A stretch of DNA of 20,009 bases from a virus, in IMG/VR virus record IMGVR_UViG_3300044490_000188, positions 1 to 20,009 of that record; one strand, written 5' to 3'. Below are positions 5,541 through 17,432 of this stretch, in pieces. The position numbers were made by a program, and so were the translations under genes. Numbering within the stretch: the first letter of the stretch is position 1; the number at the start of each line of letters is the position of its first letter. The notes under the pieces are model-generated. The model saw only the letters and a list, made by a program, of their open reading frames with translations. It was not told the origin of the DNA and searched no databases.

Positions 5541-5843
5541 TCATCCCACGATCGGTCGATGATCGATCGGCCGGCCCTGCTCGATGTTCTCCAGTCGCTG
5601 CTCCAGCGGCACGCACACGGAACACGCCTCGCCGGGGCAGGTGATCCCGTGGCACTGGCGACAGAATCCCAGCTCCAGCTTCCGCTGCAGAATTAGGCCG
5701 ATCGAGGCCCCCACCGGCCAGTGCCGGCCGCAATGGACGCATTGCACCAGGTCGGCCTGTCCCTCACGGGAGCCGTCACCGGGCGTGATCACGATTTGCG
5801 AACTCGGCCGCAATGCCGAGTGTCCCCGCAGCCCTACTGTCAT
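5541..5843 (-). CDS. Small zinc-knuckle protein (CVHCGRHW), tail module
   Basis: A 100-residue protein with a cluster of paired cysteines: CVHC-GRHW at about residues 35-42, CRQC at 61-64, then CPGEACSVC at 69-77. A helical tail follows (VPLEQRLENIEQGRP). The spacing suggests one or two bound zinc ions. I associate the CVHCGRHW and C-x-x-C-VP-x-EQRLE signature with small proteins in planctomycete prophage tail clusters; their function is unknown to me. The ATG at 5843 lies 9 nt after the upstream stop. It could be a structural protein with a metal-stabilised fold or an assembly factor; the sequence does not decide. Confidence 0.8.
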   Translation of the reverse strand: MTVGLRGHSALRPSSQIVITPGDGSREGQADLVQCVHCGRHWPVGASIGLILQRKLELGFCRQCHGITCPGEACSVCVPLEQRLENIEQGRPIDHRPIVG

Positions 5844-6318: not shown

Positions 6319-6732
6319 TCAAAGCAGGTAATGCGGAGTCATGGTAAATCGCGTGATCAGCTCCGCGCCGTTGACGAGGTTGATGCCTGGACCCACGAGC
6401 CGCAGGACTTTCTGGCAATGCAGTGGCTCGACGGCATCCACGAAATACCCGTGGGCGAACTCGTAGAAGTAATTGAGGTTGTTGTAGGTCACGAGCACCC
6501 AGCCCGTCCGGATGATCGACTGCATCAGCGGGATCGCCAGCATGGCGGACTGGTAACTGTTCCACCACGACACGAGTTCCACCTCGAACTGATCGCCCCA
6601 GCGTCCGAGCCGCTGTTGCCCGACGCCATCCGCTCCAGGCCGCGTAAAGGACGAGCCGTGCTCGTAGGCCAACCCTGGCGGCTGACCGCGCCAAAACTCG
6701 AAGTTGAACACGTCGACCCGATGAGCACTCAT
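6319..6732 (-). CDS. Post-tape-measure tail protein, function unknown
   Basis: A 137-residue protein (MSAHRVDVFNFEFWRGQPPG...) with many aromatic residues, including WWNSYQSAMLAIPLMQS and YNNLNYFYEFAHGYFVDAVEP, and no transmembrane segment or metal motif. The ATG at 6732 overlaps the tape measure stop by four bases (ATGA), indicating translational coupling. Its place directly behind the tape measure is where many siphoviruses encode a distal tail or tail-initiation protein, so that is the favoured inference. No family was recognised from sequence. Confidence 0.75.
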   Translation of the reverse strand: MSAHRVDVFNFEFWRGQPPGLAYEHGSSFTRPGADGVGQQRLGRWGDQFEVELVSWWNSYQSAMLAIPLMQSIIRTGWVLVTYNNLNYFYEFAHGYFVDAVEPLHCQKVLRLVGPGINLVNGAELITRFTMTPHYLL

Positions 6733-8219
6733 GGTGGCACCGCCGCTTGGGCGCGTTGACTGTGACTGAAAGAACCAGCTTGTTTGCTTTGCTCTTGTGC
6801 GGCAGCATTCAAGTTCGCGGCGGCCTGATTCAACTGTCTGGCCGACGACTCCAAGGCACCGGCTGTCTCGCGTTCTCGCTGCCGTTGGATGGCTGTGATC
6901 CGCTTGCCGAGTGCGCCGACCTCCTCACCGGAAAATGTCTCAGCCGCTAAGCCCGCCGCTCCCGCGACCGCCTCCGGGGACCCACCCACGGACTTGACTG
7001 CCCACCCGACCCACTCGGCAACGGCTTGCGCTGGGGCGTCGCCACCGGCCATCTTGATGTCGGCCATGACCTGGTCGAGCGCCGCCTGCCGGAGTGCACT
7101 GCCGGTCTGATAGACGCCTTCATTGACGATTTCACGCCGGATGCGTGCCTGCTCAGCCGCAATCGAGGCCTGCGTCTGTCGACCAACTTCCGTGCTGGTG
7201 TCGACGGCTGCGGCTCGGGCTCTCGCCAGAGCGGACCGCGGAGTCTCTGCTGTCTGGATGGCCTCGTCAACCAGTCGCGTCAGCTCCTCGATAGTCGCCA
7301 GCTCTTCACCGACGACACGGAAAGCGGCGTTCAACTCATTGCTTTCGCCAAGAAAATCCTTGCGCCGCTCCTCGCCCGCCGCCTGCAATTCCTTCACGGC
7401 GCCCACAATGCCCTTGCCACCAAGTTCGCTGTCCAGAGCGATCTTGGCACCAAGTACCCTGATCCGGTCCGCAGCTGTTTCGCCAGATTTGAAGCGACTC
7501 GCGAGCACCGATTGTAGCGCCATTGTCTCCGCTGGCGCCGCACCAGCCGCTCCGGCGCCCTCGGCCGCACCAGGCAGATTCGCGGTGAGCTGCTCGAACG
7601 TCAGTCGACTTTGCGTCGCAGCGACCAAGGCCGCATTCACCGATTGCCGCGGTGTCAGGCCAGCACCTGGGAATAGTGCTGGAATCTGACCGGCCGCTTG
7701 AGCGGCAGACTCGGGGGCGACGACCCGCGCACTGGAAATGATCTCGCGAAAGAAGTCCTCAAACCCCTCGGAGCGCGCGGAGAACAATACGCGCCTGGTG
7801 ACCTCGCGTTCGACACCGTATTCCGCTGACGCCTGGTCGGCGATTGTCTCCAGTCGTTGGCGATCCGACGCATCCACCGAAACCTGCGTCAGCCGCCGGC
7901 GAGCGTCGTTCAACGTATCGAACGATCTGGTGGCGGACTCCGTTTCCTGCTGGTGATGGGCGATCACCTGGCGGGCCACGTTCACGGCCGCCGTCACCGA
8001 GACCCAACTGGCGACAGTTTGATTGATGGAGCTGACAAGTCGCTGCTGCGCTGCCGCCTGATTCTTGGCGGCCTTCTCGCCGTCATCGCCCGCCTTCTTG
8101 CCCGCGGAGCCGACCTTCTTGTAGCTGCCCTCCAGCTCCTTGGTCTGCGCGAGGATCTTCTGCTGTGCTCGCCAGAGCTTGGCCTCCTCCCCCGTCATGA
8201 CAACCGCGACTTCGGCCAT
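6729..8219 (-). CDS. Tape measure protein (short)
   Basis: A 496-residue protein, predominantly helical with long Ala, Glu, Gln and Arg-rich stretches. The N-terminal coiled-coil (EEAKLWRAQQKILAQTKELE) is followed by KKVGSAGKKAGDDGEKAAKN, a pattern typical of tail tape measure N-termini. The C-terminal region is again helical and Gln- and Ala-rich (RQLNQAAANLNAAAQEQSKQ). No transmembrane segment or lytic/peptidase domain is apparent, which is unusual, and the length is below many tape measures, implying a short tail. It lies immediately downstream of the frameshifting chaperone-like gene, the standard place for a tape measure. The ATG at 8219 was preferred over GTG at 8225; neither has a strong Shine-Dalgarno, and it likely depends on ribosomes ending at 8226 in the shifted frame. 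Confidence 0.8.
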   Translation of the reverse strand: MAEVAVVMTGEEAKLWRAQQKILAQTKELEGSYKKVGSAGKKAGDDGEKAAKNQAAAQQRLVSSINQTVASWVSVTAAVNVARQVIAHHQQETESATRSFDTLNDARRRLTQVSVDASDRQRLETIADQASAEYGVEREVTRRVLFSARSEGFEDFFREIISSARVVAPESAAQAAGQIPALFPGAGLTPRQSVNAALVAATQSRLTFEQLTANLPGAAEGAGAAGAAPAETMALQSVLASRFKSGETAADRIRVLGAKIALDSELGGKGIVGAVKELQAAGEERRKDFLGESNELNAAFRVVGEELATIEELTRLVDEAIQTAETPRSALARARAAAVDTSTEVGRQTQASIAAEQARIRREIVNEGVYQTGSALRQAALDQVMADIKMAGGDAPAQAVAEWVGWAVKSVGGSPEAVAGAAGLAAETFSGEEVGALGKRITAIQRQRERETAGALESSARQLNQAAANLNAAAQEQSKQAGSFSHSQRAQAAVPP

Positions 8220-8225
8220 GATCAC

Positions 8226-9082
8226 TCACGCGAAAATCGGTCCTAGTTCGTCGTAACGATGGAATCCGGCTGCGTACGCTCGCAGCTCGGCGACGGTGGG
8301 GTGATGGCGACTGACGCCCCCTCCATCGATAATTCGCCCCCAGAGACAGAAAGTGATCCACTGCGGGCCAATGCGGCACACTTTTTTTTTACCCACGCCC
8401 GCCAGGTGGCGACGTCCAGCAGTGCGTCCACGATCCGCTCGCGGATCTGCAGGTCGTAGATCCCCAGCAGGTCCAGCTCGCTGGCAGACACCCGGTAGTT
8501 CGCCTGCAGCGCGGCAATGGCCATATCGTTGATCGCGTCGAAGGTGAACCGCACGACGTCGCCGTCGTGGTGTGACTGCACGGCCTCCGCGAACGCCTGC
8601 TCGTAGGCACACACCCAGCGCCACAGCTGCTCATAGCGCGACTTGACAGCCCCCAGTTGCCACTGGCCATCGGCGGCCAGCGACAATCGTTGCGGCAGGC
8701 CGCAGACCGGATAACATTCGCCGTCGAACTCCTCCCAGCGGCGAGCCTTGGGTATCAGCCACTGGGAGCCGTCGTCACACGTGATCCATAGGCCGTCGAG
8801 CAGCTCCGGACGGGCGAGATCAGTTGGTGTCGGTCGCTCATCACGGTAGTAGCCGATCCAGGCGGACGAATGGGGAATCTGCCTCCAGTCCTGCTCGTGC
8901 TTGTGATAGCCGACTCGCTGGTCACCAGCCGCGATCACTACGCCGCTGCCATTGTCTGGACCGCCCAAACACTGCCGGGGAGTCAACTGGGCGTCGAAGG
9001 CGTAGCCCAGGCCCAGGGCTCGCACGTCGGCCAGCTTGATGTCCGGGCCACGCCCCGGCAGGTAGTAGAGGAAACCAGCCAC
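8226..9082 (-). CDS. Predicted -1 frameshift product of the chaperone gene (gpGT-type), 285 aa
   Basis: If ribosomes slip back one base on the A-run at 8382-8390, the first 234 residues are joined to a 51-residue tail. That tail starts VCRIGPQWITFCLWGR and ends VAELRAYAAGFHRYDELGPI plus FA. The shifted frame stays open to TGA at 8226-8228, six bases before the tape measure ATG at 8219. It reads more like a folded protein (VAELRAYAAGFHRYDE helix) than the zero-frame tail does. The direction of shift, -1, matches lambda G/GT and most siphovirus examples. The shifted C-terminus would correspond to the T domain that contacts tail tube subunits. Sequence supports the site and open frame; use in the cell is predicted. 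Confidence 0.65.
8243..9082 (-). CDS. Tail assembly chaperone-like protein, unshifted product (gpG-type)
   Basis: A 279-residue protein beginning MAGFLYYLPGRGPDIKLADV. Its first ~120 residues (GLGYAFDAQLTPRQCLGG, GYHKHEQDWRQIPHSSAWIG, DLARPELLDGLWITCDDGSQ, WLIPKARRWEEFDGE) resemble a protein commonly found ahead of the tape measure in planctomycete prophages. The second half is helical. The GTG at 9082 has GGAG 7 nt upstream. Near the end, codons GTA AAA AAA AAG form a slippery run, after which the zero frame continues for 45 mostly low-complexity residues (SLSVSGGELSMEG...). The location between the tail tube and tape measure genes and the frameshift signal support an assembly chaperone like lambda gpG. 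The role is inferred; homology to gpG itself is not evident. Confidence 0.75.
   Translation of the reverse strand: MAGFLYYLPGRGPDIKLADVRALGLGYAFDAQLTPRQCLGGPDNGSGVVIAAGDQRVGYHKHEQDWRQIPHSSAWIGYYRDERPTPTDLARPELLDGLWITCDDGSQWLIPKARRWEEFDGECYPVCGLPQRLSLAADGQWQLGAVKSRYEQLWRWVCAYEQAFAEAVQSHHDGDVVRFTFDAINDMAIAALQANYRVSASELDLLGIYDLQIRERIVDALLDVATWRAWVKKKCAALARSGSLSVSGGELSMEGASVAITPPSPSCERTQPDSIVTTN
8381..8391 (-). promoter_or_regulatory. Slippery sequence for programmed -1 ribosomal frameshifting
   Basis: On the - strand the sequence reads GTA AAA AAA AAG in the zero frame, a run of nine A residues followed by G. This contains the in-frame heptamer A AAA AAG, the same slippery heptamer as E. coli dnaX. 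It lies about 140 bases before the end of the chaperone-like gene, and the -1 frame continues open to the start of the tape measure gene. A downstream stimulatory hairpin was not identified with certainty. Confidence 0.7.
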
Positions 9083-9086
9083 ACAC

Positions 9087-9296
9087 TCACTCCGTCTGCT
9101 CTGCGTCCGCCAGATCCGCTCGTCCGCGATCCGCCATCCGATCCGCTACCGCGTCCAGCACGGCCTGCAGCTCGTCGCCGGTCTCGCACGCGGCGATCGC
9201 CTGCTGTTCGTCCGGCGTGCACCGTCTGGCGAACGCGGCCGCTGCCGACTTTCCCAGGCCGCGCATGCGGCACAGGATTTCTACTGCTTCTTCCAT
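9087..9296 (-). CDS. Small acidic hypothetical protein ahead of the chaperone gene
   Basis: A 69-residue, helical, acidic protein (MEEAVEILCRMRGLGKSAAA...), ending DRGRADLADAEQTE. The ATG at 9296 has GAGAGGG about 5 nt upstream, a good ribosome site. The in-frame start at 9350 would overlap the tail tube gene and lacks support. It is placed between the tail tube gene and the frameshifting chaperone gene, so it may also be part of the tail assembly set. No family recognised. Confidence 0.65.
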   Translation of the reverse strand: MEEAVEILCRMRGLGKSAAAAFARRCTPDEQQAIAACETGDELQAVLDAVADRMADRGRADLADAEQTE

Positions 9297-9309
9297 GTCA
9301 CCCTCTCGC

Positions 9310-10248
9310 TCAAGTAATCGCCGTGGCCGTGTTGATGACGATCGGCGCATTGGTGCCGTCGTAAGCCACGGTCATCTCCAGTTCGATCTGGGCCGGATTG
9401 TCGCCCTGGTCGTCGAATGGATTGGTGATGACGGCCAGGCCCGCCGCCGCCAGGGAGATGTGCTCCGCCGTGCCGTTGGCGACAAATCCAGTAGCGCCCG
9501 TCGAACGCTTCCGCAGGTAGAGTTTCGTGTTGGCCTGCGTGAACACCAGGCCCGTTCGCGGCACGTTGGTGGACTTGAGCCACTCGATGTTGCTGCCCAC
9601 CAAGCGGATCTTGGGTTCGATCGCCCGGATCATGCAGTGCGTGTCGTACAGGTCGCTGTCGGTCGACTGGGCTTGGGCCATGACGCCGAAGTCGACTTCC
9701 AGCCGGATGATTTGCGCGATGGCAATCGAGCCGATGGTCACCTGCCCCAGTGTGAACCGCTCGTTGTCCGTGGGCGCGGTGGGCAGGGCGGACGTGTCGG
9801 TTTCGACGATGGGATCGTTTGAACCGTCATAGGTCGGCAGGATCGCGTACTCCAGCTCCGCGTCCCCACGGTGCTCGCACGTGAGTCGCACGGGGTAGAC
9901 AAGTCCCTCGGTGATGTTGTACTTGCGGTGCACGGAGCCCGCCGCCGCGAGCGCGCCCTCGGTGAATTTCTGCGCGAACAGATTGATGCCGGTGTACGTC
10001 AACGCCAGGCCGGTCAGTCCAATCTGATCGAGCGCGTCCTGCAGACAGACCGTGCGGAAGGTGGGCCGGGGCGCGTGCGAATAGGCCGCGATGTACCGCG
10101 GATAGACGTCCCCGCCCGTGCGCGTCGCGCGGACGTCCCACTCGTCCGGCACACTCACGTTCGTGATGCCCGCCAGATTCACGGGCACCGAGGGAGTGAG
10201 AACGTCGATCTGCACGGCGTAACGACCGTGAACTTGAGCGATAGTCAT
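9310..10248 (-). CDS. Major tail tube protein (probable)
   Basis: A 312-residue beta-rich protein between the tail-completion-like gene and the chaperone/tape measure genes, the usual place of the tail tube subunit. Strand-like segments include YAVQIDVLTPSVPVNLAGI, ELEYAILPTYDGSNDP, GSIAIAQIIRLEVDFGVMAQ, PKIRLVGSNIEWL and IELEMTVAYDGTNAPIVINT. A short motif is repeated: YDGSNDPIVETDT near residue 140 and YDGTNAPIVINTAT at the C-terminus. The ATG at 10248 has TAGGAG at 8 nt, overlapping the previous stop codon. The length exceeds that of single-domain tube proteins, suggesting an extra domain. Function is inferred from location and fold-like pattern. Confidence 0.7.
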   Translation of the reverse strand: MTIAQVHGRYAVQIDVLTPSVPVNLAGITNVSVPDEWDVRATRTGGDVYPRYIAAYSHAPRPTFRTVCLQDALDQIGLTGLALTYTGINLFAQKFTEGALAAAGSVHRKYNITEGLVYPVRLTCEHRGDAELEYAILPTYDGSNDPIVETDTSALPTAPTDNERFTLGQVTIGSIAIAQIIRLEVDFGVMAQAQSTDSDLYDTHCMIRAIEPKIRLVGSNIEWLKSTNVPRTGLVFTQANTKLYLRKRSTGATGFVANGTAEHISLAAAGLAVITNPFDDQGDNPAQIELEMTVAYDGTNAPIVINTATAIT

Positions 10249-10259
10249 GTGCCCGACTC

Positions 10260-10763
10260 CTACGCTAGTTTCTTGGTTTCCGTGGTTTTGATCCGTGCCA
10301 ATCGCTGGTGCACCTGCCGATCGGCGCGGGCAATGATCAGCTGTTCCTCGCGCGGGCTGATCCGCGTCAGTTCGTCCCGCATGCGGATGCGGCTCTTGGG
10401 ATGCTTGAGGTTGAATTTCCGGGGCAGAACCACCCGCACCCGTTTGCTGGTGGCCCGCACGTCCCGCATCCGGGAGAGCCGCTCGCCTTCGCCCGTGTAG
10501 ACCAGCGGCCTGGTGTGGCCAAAGCGGGCGAACTTGCGGCCCGTGTAACTACGACGCCAGCCCTTCGAGCCGCGCGGCAGGCCCTCGCCCTTGCGCTGGT
10601 AGTAGCCGTATTCCTGCGCCCCGGCCTCGGTGAAGTGCTTGGCACGAAACTGACGATGCCAGTATTCGCCCGCGTCGCGGAAGACCGGCTCCGCGACCTC
10701 CGTGTTCCAGTCCCGGCGACGGAGCGGGTGGGCGCCTCGGTAGTGCACCTCGATGCCGAGCAT
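10260..10763 (-). CDS. Tail completion / head-tail connector protein (probable)
   Basis: A 167-residue, highly basic protein. Visible segments are VAEPVFRDAGEYWHRQF, KHFTEAGAQEYGYYQRKGEG, SYTGRKFARFGHTRPLVYTG and RMRDELTRISPREEQLIIAR. The PLVYTGEGERLSR element followed by a DELT-x-x-x-x-x-EE tail is a pattern I associate with tail-completion (gpZ or HK97 gp10-like) proteins of planctomycete phages. The ATG at 10763 overlaps the upstream stop by one base (TAATG); the longer start at 10778 is disfavoured. It lies between the tail-terminator-like and tail tube genes, as expected for a neck component. Confidence 0.65.
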   Translation of the reverse strand: MLGIEVHYRGAHPLRRRDWNTEVAEPVFRDAGEYWHRQFRAKHFTEAGAQEYGYYQRKGEGLPRGSKGWRRSYTGRKFARFGHTRPLVYTGEGERLSRMRDVRATSKRVRVVLPRKFNLKHPKSRIRMRDELTRISPREEQLIIARADRQVHQRLARIKTTETKKLA

Positions 10764-11344
10764 TAGCCCATCCCCCATTCGATCGCCAGATCGACCGCCA
10801 GGAAATCACCGCGGGCCGTGCGCTGATCTTCGTCAGCGCGGTAGAGTTCACTGACCTCATGACGACGTGCTGCCAGGTAATCACTGCCACCACCGGCGAG
10901 ATCCAACAGGCCCTTGAAGCTGGCGTCGTCCGTCGACTCCCGCCGCAGGATCTTGCCAACCGAGTTGGCAAACTGCATCAACGCTTCGTCAGGATGGAGG
11001 AGGTCGTTTTCCGTATCGTAGTTTTCCTCGAGATGCAGCCAGAGCGTTCCTGACTGGAGATAATCCCATGAACCGGCACTCGTGGCGCGGTGTTCGAACA
11101 CATTGGCCACGCCCGGCCAGAAGTCGACCACCGCGAAAGGCCGGTACGTCGCCCAGACGCTGGCGGCGTGCGCGTCCGCAGTCAGTGCCGGAGCCGGCAC
11201 GTCGAAATAGTAGATCCGTGCCAGGGCCTGAGCTTGTGTCGAGGCGCCGCACCAGGTGCGAAACTGCGTGCAGTCCGCCAGCGTCGACCGCAGCGCTTGT
11301 AGCTGCTTCGAGAGGACCCCGATCGGTGTGCTGGTGACGGTCAT
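10763..11344 (-). CDS. Neck protein, tail-terminator-like (tentative)
   Basis: A 193-residue protein starting MTVTSTPIGVLSKQLQALRS. An N-terminal helix (LSKQLQALRSTLADC) is followed by strands (ALARIYYFDVPAPAL, RPFAVVDFWPGVANV, SGTLWLHLEENYDTE) and a C-terminal beta segment FLAVDLAIEWGMG. The layout, small size and position between a head-closure-like and a tail-completion-like gene fit a tail terminator that caps the tube, but I do not see a specific diagnostic motif. The ATG at 11344 overlaps the preceding stop by four bases (ATGA). Confidence 0.6.
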   Translation of the reverse strand: MTVTSTPIGVLSKQLQALRSTLADCTQFRTWCGASTQAQALARIYYFDVPAPALTADAHAASVWATYRPFAVVDFWPGVANVFEHRATSAGSWDYLQSGTLWLHLEENYDTENDLLHPDEALMQFANSVGKILRRESTDDASFKGLLDLAGGGSDYLAARRHEVSELYRADEDQRTARGDFLAVDLAIEWGMG

Positions 11345-12841: not shown

Positions 12842-14446
12842 TCACGCAGCGCCGGTCGATTTGACGAGTGCCCGGAAATCGAGCGCCTTGGCTCCGATGT
12901 CCATGTTCACATCCCAGCCCAGGCCCCACTGCCCCTTGTCCAGCACAAACGAACGGATCTGGGGAGCCCGGCCCGTGCCGCGCAAGTAGCCCACCTCGAT
13001 CGTCTTGGCACCGTTCTCGCCAGGACGAGCGGCCATGAAGTAATTGGTGGCCGTCCCGGTGTAGGCCGTCCCGGACGCCGGATCCGTCACGCCCGTGGCA
13101 CCGATGCGGTCGTCTGCCACGATCTGCAGCATTAGGTCCGACACCGGGTTCAGGTCACCCTCGGAGCTGTAACGGAAGGCCGAGGCACAGATGATCTGAG
13201 CCGTGAACAGCAGATCCTGCGGTACGATCAAGAACCGCGGACGCAGATTGAGCGGCCTGGTTCTGATACGCTGCTTGGCCATCATCTGAATGACGGCCTG
13301 AACATAAGCCGCCGACATGGCGCCACCGGAGTGCAGGTTCGCGTGACCACCGGATGTGGTGGTGGCCGTGGCGTTGAACAGTGCGCCCGATGTGGCGGTC
13401 AGAGTCGCATTGGCCAGCAGGATGGCATAGACCAGATCCGGCCGCAGCGCCCGGGCGGCGTTGCCGATTTCCGCCGGGGTGCTACCTTCGATCGCCCCGA
13501 AGCGGTCGTCAATGATGTCCTGCTCGTCGACCACGAACTGGCCGGCGTAACGGGCGATGCGGTAGGACTCATAGCTGTCGCTTTGATCCAGGTGTTCCGC
13601 CGTTCCCCCGCGGCGATGCCGTGTCAGCGTCTGGAACTTGCCCATCGCCGCCCGCTCATTGCTCTGGAAGTTCGGCACGTCCGCGTCACTGCACCAGCCC
13701 GCTGTCGTGTCCGTCGCCTCGGTGTACGCGGCCACCAGCGCCGCTGAGACGTTGGTGGTGAAGATGGCCGAGAGCGTTCCACCGGACACAGCCGCGCGAA
13801 TGCACTCCCCGCGCGAGGCTGGAATCCGCCCCGTGTCAATGCGGCACGCCTCGCGGCAGAAGTCCACGAGGGACAGGTCCCGCCACTGCCAGCCCAGATC
13901 GGCGGCCCGTTCGAGTGCCTCGTCCCGCTGACCTTCGCGCCGCGGACGATAGCAGCCGTCCACGTACCGGGCGTGTTGGCGCACCGGATCCAGTCCGTGG
14001 CGGATCATCAAGGCCGCCCCCAAGGTCTCGCGAGTGCAGTCCGCGTCGTGACTACGCAGGTGAATGGCTGGGCCTGTCGGCGGCAGGCGATTCTGACGCA
14101 CGGAGGCGAGGAACTCGCGTGCCGCCCGGGCCGTATCCCAACCCTCATTGACCGCTCGCTGCCGCACCACTTCCGATACGTCCGCCCCCGCCATTTCCAC
14201 GATCTGCCGCACGCGATCCCGCTCCGCGGCGATCGCCCGTTCCGCCACCTGCTCCGCTGTCGGTGGCGTCGCGTCGCTCGGTGGCGGATCGTCGTCAGCA
14301 CCGGCGTCCCGTGTGGCTGCCGCCGCTTCGTCGGCCTGTGCTCGCTGGCCCGCATCCAGACCCTCATAGAAGGACTGGGCTTCATCTTCGGTGGCTTCGG
14401 AACGAAGCCCGATCGTTTCCAAGTACGCTCGAAGTCTGGGATTCAC
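12842..14446 (-). CDS. Predicted nested in-frame product: scaffold-capsid protein without protease (534 aa)
   Basis: Inside the fusion ORF, codon 193 is GTG at plus positions 14444-14446, preceded by GAAAGGAGATTCAC with AGGAG exactly 6 nt before the GTG. From here translation would begin MNPRLRAYLETIGLRS and run through the scaffold-like helices into the capsid domain. The downstream residues look like a natural N-terminus of a stand-alone planctomycete-phage capsid gene. The layout parallels lambda, where an in-frame internal start inside the protease gene yields scaffold. The sequence supports the ribosome site and frame; expression is predicted only. Confidence 0.55.
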   Translation of the reverse strand: MNPRLRAYLETIGLRSEATEDEAQSFYEGLDAGQRAQADEAAAATRDAGADDDPPPSDATPPTAEQVAERAIAAERDRVRQIVEMAGADVSEVVRQRAVNEGWDTARAAREFLASVRQNRLPPTGPAIHLRSHDADCTRETLGAALMIRHGLDPVRQHARYVDGCYRPRREGQRDEALERAADLGWQWRDLSLVDFCREACRIDTGRIPASRGECIRAAVSGGTLSAIFTTNVSAALVAAYTEATDTTAGWCSDADVPNFQSNERAAMGKFQTLTRHRRGGTAEHLDQSDSYESYRIARYAGQFVVDEQDIIDDRFGAIEGSTPAEIGNAARALRPDLVYAILLANATLTATSGALFNATATTTSGGHANLHSGGAMSAAYVQAVIQMMAKQRIRTRPLNLRPRFLIVPQDLLFTAQIICASAFRYSSEGDLNPVSDLMLQIVADDRIGATGVTDPASGTAYTGTATNYFMAARPGENGAKTIEVGYLRGTGRAPQIRSFVLDKGQWGLGWDVNMDIGAKALDFRALVKSTGAA

Positions 14447-15022
14447 GTGAATCTCCTTTCTCGAAAATGTGTGACTGTCCTCCCGGATCTTCGCGGCGTT
14501 GTCCGCCCCGATCGGGACTAGGGATCCTTCACGCAGTAACCACTCAGTGGCAATGCGCAGCACGCGCTTGCCAGCCGTGTATTGCTTGCTCAGCACCGTG
14601 GCCGTCTGGCCGGCGGCGATCTCCGTGGACTGCATCACGCGGTAGCCGACCGACACGTCAGTGAGGTGACCTCCACGGACCATTTGCCAGGCGTGGTCCG
14701 CGTCCTCGCTCTCGGCGAAATGCAGTCGCCCGGCGACGCTATTGCCGTCGACGCGCAGGTCGCGGACCGACCCCAGGACGTCCCGCAGCGACGAGCGAGA
14801 GTGATTGGCCAGCATCGGCATCTGGGACGGGATCCTGGCGCCCTCCGGCAAAAGCACCTCATCGATTGTCTCGCCGCGTCGCCAATCGTAGACCTCTACC
14901 GGATCGCCCGTGCTGATCGTCGCCTCGACTGTCCGCTGTTCGGCGTTGACAGTGGCCGCGCGGAGCTGCATACCGCGAGTGACGATGTCGCGCCGGTCCT
15001 CGTCGCGCTGCTGCCAGGTCAT
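12842..15022 (-). CDS. Fused prohead protease and major capsid protein
   Basis: A 726-residue polyprotein. Residues about 15-180 are an HK97/U35-type prohead serine protease with PMLANHSR (catalytic His74) and HLTDVSVGYRV (catalytic Ser124), ending near EWLLREGSLVPIGADNA. Residues 193-310 are Ala- and Glu-rich and helical (EQVAERAIAAERDRVRQIVE), the scaffold-like or delta region. Residues about 320-726 form the capsid protein, with LVDFCREACRID, IARYAGQFVVDEQDIIDD and a C-terminus RAPQIRSFVLDKGQWGLGWD typical of Mu-I/HK97-like major capsid proteins in this arrangement. The protease would cut itself and the scaffold region away during maturation. The ATG at 15022 overlaps the portal stop by four bases (ATGA). 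Fusion of protease and capsid is known in phages; the internal restart is described separately. Confidence 0.85.
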   Translation of the reverse strand: MTWQQRDEDRRDIVTRGMQLRAATVNAEQRTVEATISTGDPVEVYDWRRGETIDEVLLPEGARIPSQMPMLANHSRSSLRDVLGSVRDLRVDGNSVAGRLHFAESEDADHAWQMVRGGHLTDVSVGYRVMQSTEIAAGQTATVLSKQYTAGKRVLRIATEWLLREGSLVPIGADNAAKIREDSHTFSRKEIHVNPRLRAYLETIGLRSEATEDEAQSFYEGLDAGQRAQADEAAAATRDAGADDDPPPSDATPPTAEQVAERAIAAERDRVRQIVEMAGADVSEVVRQRAVNEGWDTARAAREFLASVRQNRLPPTGPAIHLRSHDADCTRETLGAALMIRHGLDPVRQHARYVDGCYRPRREGQRDEALERAADLGWQWRDLSLVDFCREACRIDTGRIPASRGECIRAAVSGGTLSAIFTTNVSAALVAAYTEATDTTAGWCSDADVPNFQSNERAAMGKFQTLTRHRRGGTAEHLDQSDSYESYRIARYAGQFVVDEQDIIDDRFGAIEGSTPAEIGNAARALRPDLVYAILLANATLTATSGALFNATATTTSGGHANLHSGGAMSAAYVQAVIQMMAKQRIRTRPLNLRPRFLIVPQDLLFTAQIICASAFRYSSEGDLNPVSDLMLQIVADDRIGATGVTDPASGTAYTGTATNYFMAARPGENGAKTIEVGYLRGTGRAPQIRSFVLDKGQWGLGWDVNMDIGAKALDFRALVKSTGAA
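14444..14462 (-). promoter_or_regulatory. Internal ribosome binding site and GTG start at protease-capsid junction
   Basis: The strand reads GAGAAAGGAGATTCACGTG, one of the best Shine-Dalgarno sites in the window. Here it decides an in-frame start within the protease-capsid ORF rather than the start of a separate ORF. Chance occurrence is possible, because E-I-H encoded by GAG ATT CAC is unremarkable, but the placement exactly at the domain boundary argues for function. Confidence 0.6.
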
Positions 15023-16994: not shown

Positions 16995-17432
16995 TTACCC
17001 GGCGTCCTTCATCGTTTTGAACCGTTTTCCGCATTTTGGACACTTCCGGTACTGGGTGCGTCCCTTGGTGGTATAGGCTTTGGCTGTCTCACCGCAGCCA
17101 GGACAGACCGTGGGATCGATCTTCAGCCGCAGCGAGTCGGACGGAGGATCCTGAAAGTCAACGCAGGGAGCCATTGTCGGTGAGTAGCTGTCGGCGATTG
17201 GCGGCACGTCAGGTTGCGGCGTCGATTGCTGGTGGTCATTGGTGATCGATGTTGGTGCTGGACGGAACGCAAAGAACGTACCGCAGTGCCGACACGTGGC
17301 ACGTCCCGACGAGTACCAGGATTGTGAAGCGTCCTTTGGCCACTCGTGAACTTCGCAGTCCTGGCAGCCACAACGCGGACAGGCCGGCCCCTTACAGCGA
17401 TCGAGAATCAGACTATTCACTCGCTCACCCAT
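16995..17432 (-). CDS. Double zinc-ribbon protein between terminase and head genes
   Basis: A 145-residue protein with two zinc ribbons. The N-terminal one is CPRCGCQDCEVHEW ... CRHCGTFF (about residues 18-53), with the two CxxC pairs about 26 residues apart. The C-terminal one is CPGCGETAKAYTT ... CPKCGKRFKTM (about 109-140). The linker is Pro-, Ser- and Thr-rich and probably disordered. Such ribbons bind nucleic acid or mediate protein contacts, so a packaging accessory or late-gene regulator are both possible; nothing here decides. The ATG at 17432 lies 16 bases inside the end of the large terminase gene, so it is probably co-transcribed with it. It is the last gene before the terminator-like hairpin. 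Confidence 0.75.
   Translation of the reverse strand: MGERVNSLILDRCKGPACPRCGCQDCEVHEWPKDASQSWYSSGRATCRHCGTFFAFRPAPTSITNDHQQSTPQPDVPPIADSYSPTMAPCVDFQDPPSDSLRLKIDPTVCPGCGETAKAYTTKGRTQYRKCPKCGKRFKTMKDAG

Follow-up and report, generated by a model that had tools for sequence, protein, structure and literature searches.

A conserved run of nine A residues joins two reading frames in a putative tail assembly chaperone gene of phages and prophages from Planctomycetota-type hosts

The stretch of DNA analysed here, hereafter called the window, comprises 20,009 nucleotides of an IMG/VR virus record (IMGVR_UViG_3300044490_000188). Along these 20 kb the genes follow the order terminase, portal, protease-capsid fusion, head decoration, connector, tail tube, chaperone-like gene and tape measure. 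The features of interest lie on the minus strand around the chaperone-like gene.

9310..10248, minus strand: major tail tube protein, the upstream gene, with a two-domain, T5 pb6-like model
8243..9082, minus strand: tail assembly chaperone-like gene, an ORF with a GTG start and a 0-frame product of 279 residues; relatives in IMG/VR and in Planctomycetota genomes
8382..8390, minus strand: putative slip site of nine A residues, read from the sequence as GTA AAA AAA AAG in the 0 frame and appearing as nine T on the plus strand
8243..8380, minus strand: 0-frame tail past the slip site, 45 codons and a stop; not conserved, the 0-frame tails of relatives being short and mutually unlike
8226..8381, minus strand: -1 frame tail, 51 codons and a stop, for a predicted shifted product of 285 residues; based on pairwise scores and a held-out profile
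6729..8219, minus strand: tape measure protein, the downstream gene, with ATG at 8219 and an alternative GTG at 8225; based on homologous downstream genes

An earlier note on this DNA had proposed a programmed -1 frameshift at an A AAA AAG heptamer, giving a chaperone pair of the gpG/gpGT type. Its description of the nine-A run, of the register GTA AAA AAA AAG and of the heptamer within it is exact, as are its product lengths of 279 and 285 residues and its 51-codon -1 frame ending 6 nt before the tape measure ATG. A slip of -1 opens these 51 codons as far as the TGA at 8228-8226, after which come six bases (GTGATC) and then the ATG at 8219. The two predicted products have roughly their first 234 residues in common, the shifted one thus comprising 234 + 51 = 285 residues. 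They are nearly equal in length because the 0-frame tail of the window is unusually long, at 46 codons in a family where the median is 15.5 and the range 1-46; in most relatives the 0-frame end is short and the shifted product clearly longer. The -1 tail carries a motif of the type RW..G....YRPT.AD..L, of which the window version is FCLWGR..GG.SRHHPTVAELRAY.

The neighbouring genes were assigned by structure modelling and by comparison across loci. The model of the tail tube protein (9310-10248; pLDDT 87.8) aligns with the SH-Ab15497 major tail protein at a VIA-align Z of 18.2 over 272 residues at 3.5 Å, and with the T5 tail tube at a Z of 17.8, while searches of Pfam and PHROG with its sequence gave no match. 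The modelled two-domain fold, of the T5 pb6 / P74-26 type, suggests a tube of the trimeric type. At the tape measure position the loci encode homologous proteins of roughly 450-800 residues; PF10145 is matched by three of 13 members of this downstream gene (best E 1.5e-6) and PHROG tape measure families by single members at E values of about 1e-3. The order tube, chaperone, tape measure is held in nearly all loci. A tube profile matches 20 of the 22 genome loci, the others being L051, with no match, and L028, whose sequence begins at the chaperone. Extra genes occupy the interval between chaperone and tape measure in L022 (4878-5318, a relative of the window gene 10260-10778), in L017 (4979-5707, a signal-peptide-like protein) and in L007 and L008 (4815-5168 and 4830-5174, a protein of about 117 residues).

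Several other ORFs of the window may be recorded. Between tube and chaperone lies an 87-residue ORF (9087-9350, minus strand) that overlaps the 3' end of the tube gene by 41 nt; it has no relative among the other loci and is a gene peculiar to the window or else an ORF that arose by chance. The prohead protease and major capsid protein form a single ORF of 726 residues (12842-15022, minus strand), which matches phrog_4523 'major head and protease protein' at E 3.5e-87. Cysteine-rich ORFs, some of them zinc-ribbon-like by eye, flank the structural cluster on the minus strand at 283-762, 714-1622, 5541-5843 and 16995-17432.

An AlphaFold model of residues 1-233 of the chaperone-like protein (pLDDT 94.8) divides into a beta domain (1-147) and, after it, a helical domain (148-232). 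Its best BFVD match is a protein annotated as 'Tail assembly chaperone', with E 2.1e-3, a probability of 1.00 and a modest TMq of 0.27. The PDB yielded no match for the chaperone by profile or by fold, and neither Pfam, searched with the window protein, nor PHROGs, searched with the window protein and with an 18-member scan, gave a relevant one. The position of the gene and the one modest fold match make its identification as a tail assembly chaperone quite probable. As to the gpG/gpGT-type pair of the earlier note, the place between tube and tape measure bears the idea out and the fold lends weak support, although Pfam and PHROG reveal no sequence relation; judging by position and frame use the gene probably functions like a G/GT pair.

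The family was assembled as 40 members, namely the window, 17 other distinct IMG/VR loci (L012 was left out as a near-copy of L011) and 22 loci from Planctomycetota genomes. The genome loci came from profile searches and include a Phycisphaeraceae MAG (L028) and a complete chromosome (L029; CP087563, 'Planctomycetes bacterium syqfu'). Most loci were found by conserved-domain patterns or by profile, the A-run being no criterion; the first scan included one pattern covering VKKKCAAL. A first genome scan with an 8-residue pattern gave no relative and a looser second scan three. Later genome searches were confined to groups of genomes that already matched, so that the sample shows presence in Planctomycetota and not restriction to it. 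No relative was found by tblastn in the INPHARED annotated phage collection, and additional IMG/VR scans seeded from distant members brought no new ones. Two apparent features were discarded. The invariance of MAGFLYY in the IMG/VR relatives is an artefact of the search, in which this peptide served as a pattern, and the peptide varies in the profile-found genome relatives; in L038 the chaperone looks as if fused to a longer frame upstream of it, but that frame is open by chance only.

Close to where the conserved 0-frame domain ends, 34 of the 40 diverged members have an A-run, with nine A's in 29 of them, ten in four and seven in one (L005). Behind it an open -1 tail of 32-63 codons follows in 34 of 34, the 0-frame continuation being unconserved and 1-46 codons long (median 15.5). 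Runs of at least nine A's, found in 33 of the 40 members, occur in all three codon registers; the A-run members divide as 10, 16 and 8 among registers 0, 1 and 2, with the seven-A member in register 2. The 309 kb of the 18-locus set, taken on both strands, hold 17 runs of at least nine A's, and these are the sites of the 17 members whose site has that length. Since there is no other such run in the set, the presence of one at this place is far beyond chance.

Two GC-rich members, L035 (75% GC) and L046 (67%), are devoid of the A-run and keep the -1 tail, in the correct register, behind G_GGA_AAA and G_GGA_AAC, respectively. The former has an SD-like GGAGG upstream of the predicted slip site and the latter a strong downstream hairpin (z -4.5). 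The earlier note expected homologues to conserve the A-run together with the -1 frame; this holds in 34 of 40, two more keep the tail with a classical G_GGA_AAN heptamer, and the remaining four, all diverged (L030, L043, L051 and L052), have neither slip site nor -1 tail. These four may have no need of the extension, may provide it from another place or may represent prophages in decay; L051 has no tube match either. A tape-measure-like frame comes immediately after the chaperone in L030 and L043. Across the family the predicted slip site takes several forms (A7, A9, A10, GGGAAAA, GGGAAAC), the protein and its tail remaining homologous throughout, and L035 and L046 present a natural swap of the putative slip-site type at one conserved frameshift.

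That the -1 frame codes for protein was assessed in two ways. In pairwise local comparisons of the 18 viral members the -1 tail scores 60.7 on average, the 0 frame 26.4, the +1 frame 27.6 and shuffled sequences 19.7. As a held-out test, a profile built from the 18 viral tails was run against the 22 genome loci in all six reading frames; it recognises the -1 frame of 13 of them at E<1e-3, both G_GGA_AAN loci included, and no match in any other frame is better than 0.6. In the -1 tails of L039-L042 and L050 the likeness to the motif is weak or visible by eye only.

The conserved tail might instead be a small overlapping gene with a start of its own, and here the distribution of start and stop codons is informative. 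At 15 of 34 loci the -1 frame does contain some ATG, GTG or TTG ahead of the tail, and GTG codons lie near the run in the window. However, start positions are not conserved, and at the other 19 of 34 no such codon stands ahead of the conserved motif; the tail there therefore cannot start on its own. In five loci a -1-frame stop reaches into the run, as a TAA that shares the run's first two A's (L009, L018, L036 and L045) or as a TGA that shares its first A (L039), so that entry into the -1 frame must there fall within the A's. A separate gene is accordingly very improbable. Judged by comparison of the sequences, the use of two frames, the position of the shift inside the A-run and the placement of the gene between tube and tape measure may be taken as established.

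Homopolymers are error-prone and the two window products have almost the same length, as would be expected had a single original frame been broken by one wrong base, through sequencing error or decay of the gene. Against this, the run and the frame break recur in 34 separate records, among them the complete chromosome CP087563, so the possibility raised in the earlier note that the run is a homopolymer error did not materialise. Furthermore, the run measures 9-10 in three different registers, both frames are open and the neighbouring genes are intact. Among the members, none was seen that had a single fused frame and no slip site. Sequencing error as a general explanation is refuted by the relatives, and error or decay retains a negligible probability. 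It is highly probable that the frameshift and the two-product gene are real and conserved.

Which machinery slips is a more finely balanced question. If slippage were purely ribosomal, two tRNA-Lys would slip by -1 on A_AAA_AAN, the long run making an efficient site without stimulators. Such tandem slippage is familiar from lambda-type phages and from E. coli dnaX. An in-frame X_XXY_YYZ heptamer is present in 34 of 34 A-run members and in L035 and L046, although this counts for little in the former since any A9 automatically provides one. The substitution of G_GGA_AAA or G_GGA_AAC at the same place in L035 and L046 speaks for the ribosomal account, as does the single seven-A run (L005), which is short yet stands in a ribosome-competent register. 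Immediately upstream of the A-runs, mean anti-SD pairing shows a modest enrichment (permutation p 0.0013), but strongly pairing sites are no more frequent than in the background (8 of 34, against 0.23). The G/GT cases covered in a review are likewise ribosomal (PMC5009743). Because L035 and L046 use G_GGA_AAN with an SD-like GGAGG or a hairpin, ribosomal slippage seems at home in the family, and these two members almost surely take that route.

A purely ribosomal account nevertheless leaves the conservation of run length unexplained. The run measures 9-10 in 33 of the 34 A-run members despite the three registers, and the tree requires at least 21 changes of register or state; even well-supported sister pairs differ in register (L007/L008, L016/L017 and L002/L014). 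A's beyond the heptamer are retained: in register 1 the codon after AAA AAA begins with A, outside the heptamer, in 16 of 16 members (background 0.196), and in register 2 the outer A's are kept in 7 of 8. The third Lys codon of register 0 is AAA in 10 of 10, when elsewhere AAA and AAG are used 148 and 146 times. Probabilities calculated from such nucleotide counts take no account of common descent and serve as indications only. Sites with six to eight A's, such as NNA AAA AAG, are missing among the 34, one A7 excepted. Nor was a simple downstream structure found to be conserved. Where the earlier note suggested folding the region in search of a stimulatory element, no simple structure exceeds control in the window (z -0.19), and the A-run members as a group fold no differently from control stretches (mean z of -0.39, against -0.19 in the controls; p 0.37, simple structures).

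What evolution keeps is, evidently, run length and not codon register. A length held at 9-10 across registers, with no simple conserved structure found downstream, points to a contribution from slippage by RNA polymerase rather than to A_AAA_AAG alone. Two published observations bear on this. In many bacteria A/T runs in coding sequence are avoided from nine nucleotides upwards, and A9 is exploited in T. thermophilus dnaX and in IS elements (PMC1088944); the frequency of single-base insertions climbs exponentially as a run lengthens, and nine nucleotides is also the length of the RNA:DNA hybrid (PMC5574713). We regard the chances that polymerase slippage is a main or substantial source of the shift as about evenly balanced. 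The fuller proposal, that a phage lineage sets its chaperone ratio by polymerase slippage on a length-fixed A9 and that GC-rich relatives switched to, or kept, ribosomal G_GGA_AAN at the same place, is tentative and falls just short of an even chance; the purely ribosomal account is a serious possibility somewhat short of one. The earlier proposal is thereby modified in two respects. The heptamer A_AAA_AAG is indeed present in the window but is restricted to it and a few relatives, nine A's in any register being what is conserved; and the programmed -1 frameshift is upheld by the conserved site and tail, but the conserved run length is explained by RNA polymerase slippage at least as well as by a slip at A_AAA_AAG that is ribosomal alone.

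Taken together, the locus very probably holds a siphophage tail chaperone gene, from Planctomycetota-type hosts, that yields two products by way of a nine-A run. The majority of expression events would give the 0-frame protein of 279 residues, and a minority would enter the -1 frame within the run at 8382-8390 to give the protein of 285 residues with its different, conserved C-terminal tail. The leading candidate mechanism, and at about even chances a substantial source of the shift, is RNA polymerase slippage on A9 that would add one A to part of the mRNAs; tandem -1 ribosome slippage on A_AAA_AAN would be an alternative or a partner to it. In lambda, the part common to gpG and gpGT attaches to the tape measure, and it is the extension of the minority form that brings in the tube protein (PMC5009743). 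By analogy the shared region would here cover the tape measure protein, and recruitment of the tail tube protein would fall to the tail of the minority form. We infer the production of both proteins, the identity of the minority form, the ratio of the two and their binding partners.

If correct, this reading carries the G/GT paradigm over to Planctomycetota phages and prophages, in a chaperone family unmatched in Pfam and PHROGs, and gives annotators the means to find the gene and to join its frames correctly. A nine-A run in shifting registers would also lend itself well, as a natural system, to the question whether slippage by the polymerase and by the ribosome can stand in for each other in setting one protein ratio; were the polymerase reading true, two decoding mechanisms would have been interchanged at one conserved frameshift.

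The lambda pair gpG/gpGT and its analogues in other long-tailed phages share with the present gene a place between tube and tape measure and a C-terminal extension drawn from a new frame. Lambda gpG is about 140 residues long, whereas the 0-frame protein here is about twice that length, has an extra N-terminal beta domain and shows no Pfam or PHROG relation; the tail here is short (some 30-60 residues) and no simple conserved structure was found downstream of the nine-A slip site. Programmed transcriptional realignment on nine A's, as in T. thermophilus dnaX and bacterial IS elements (PMC1088944), offers a second parallel, in that nine A's are kept and one gene gives two products, but the gene here is a phage tail gene and polymerase slippage on its run is a candidate mechanism. 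A literature search of incomplete coverage found no report of transcriptional slippage in a tail chaperone. A third parallel may be drawn with tssM1 of the Citrobacter rodentium T6SS, where RNA polymerase slippage on A11 gives two length variants whose ratio matters (PMC4256274). There too a poly-A slip operates in a tail-like machine, and that paper itself makes the comparison with lambda G/GT; gene and protein are different, however, and the slip, demonstrated experimentally in that case, restores a prematurely interrupted frame. The lambda G/GT trick is the known element of the present locus, set apart here by a slip site whose run of nine A's is unusually fixed.
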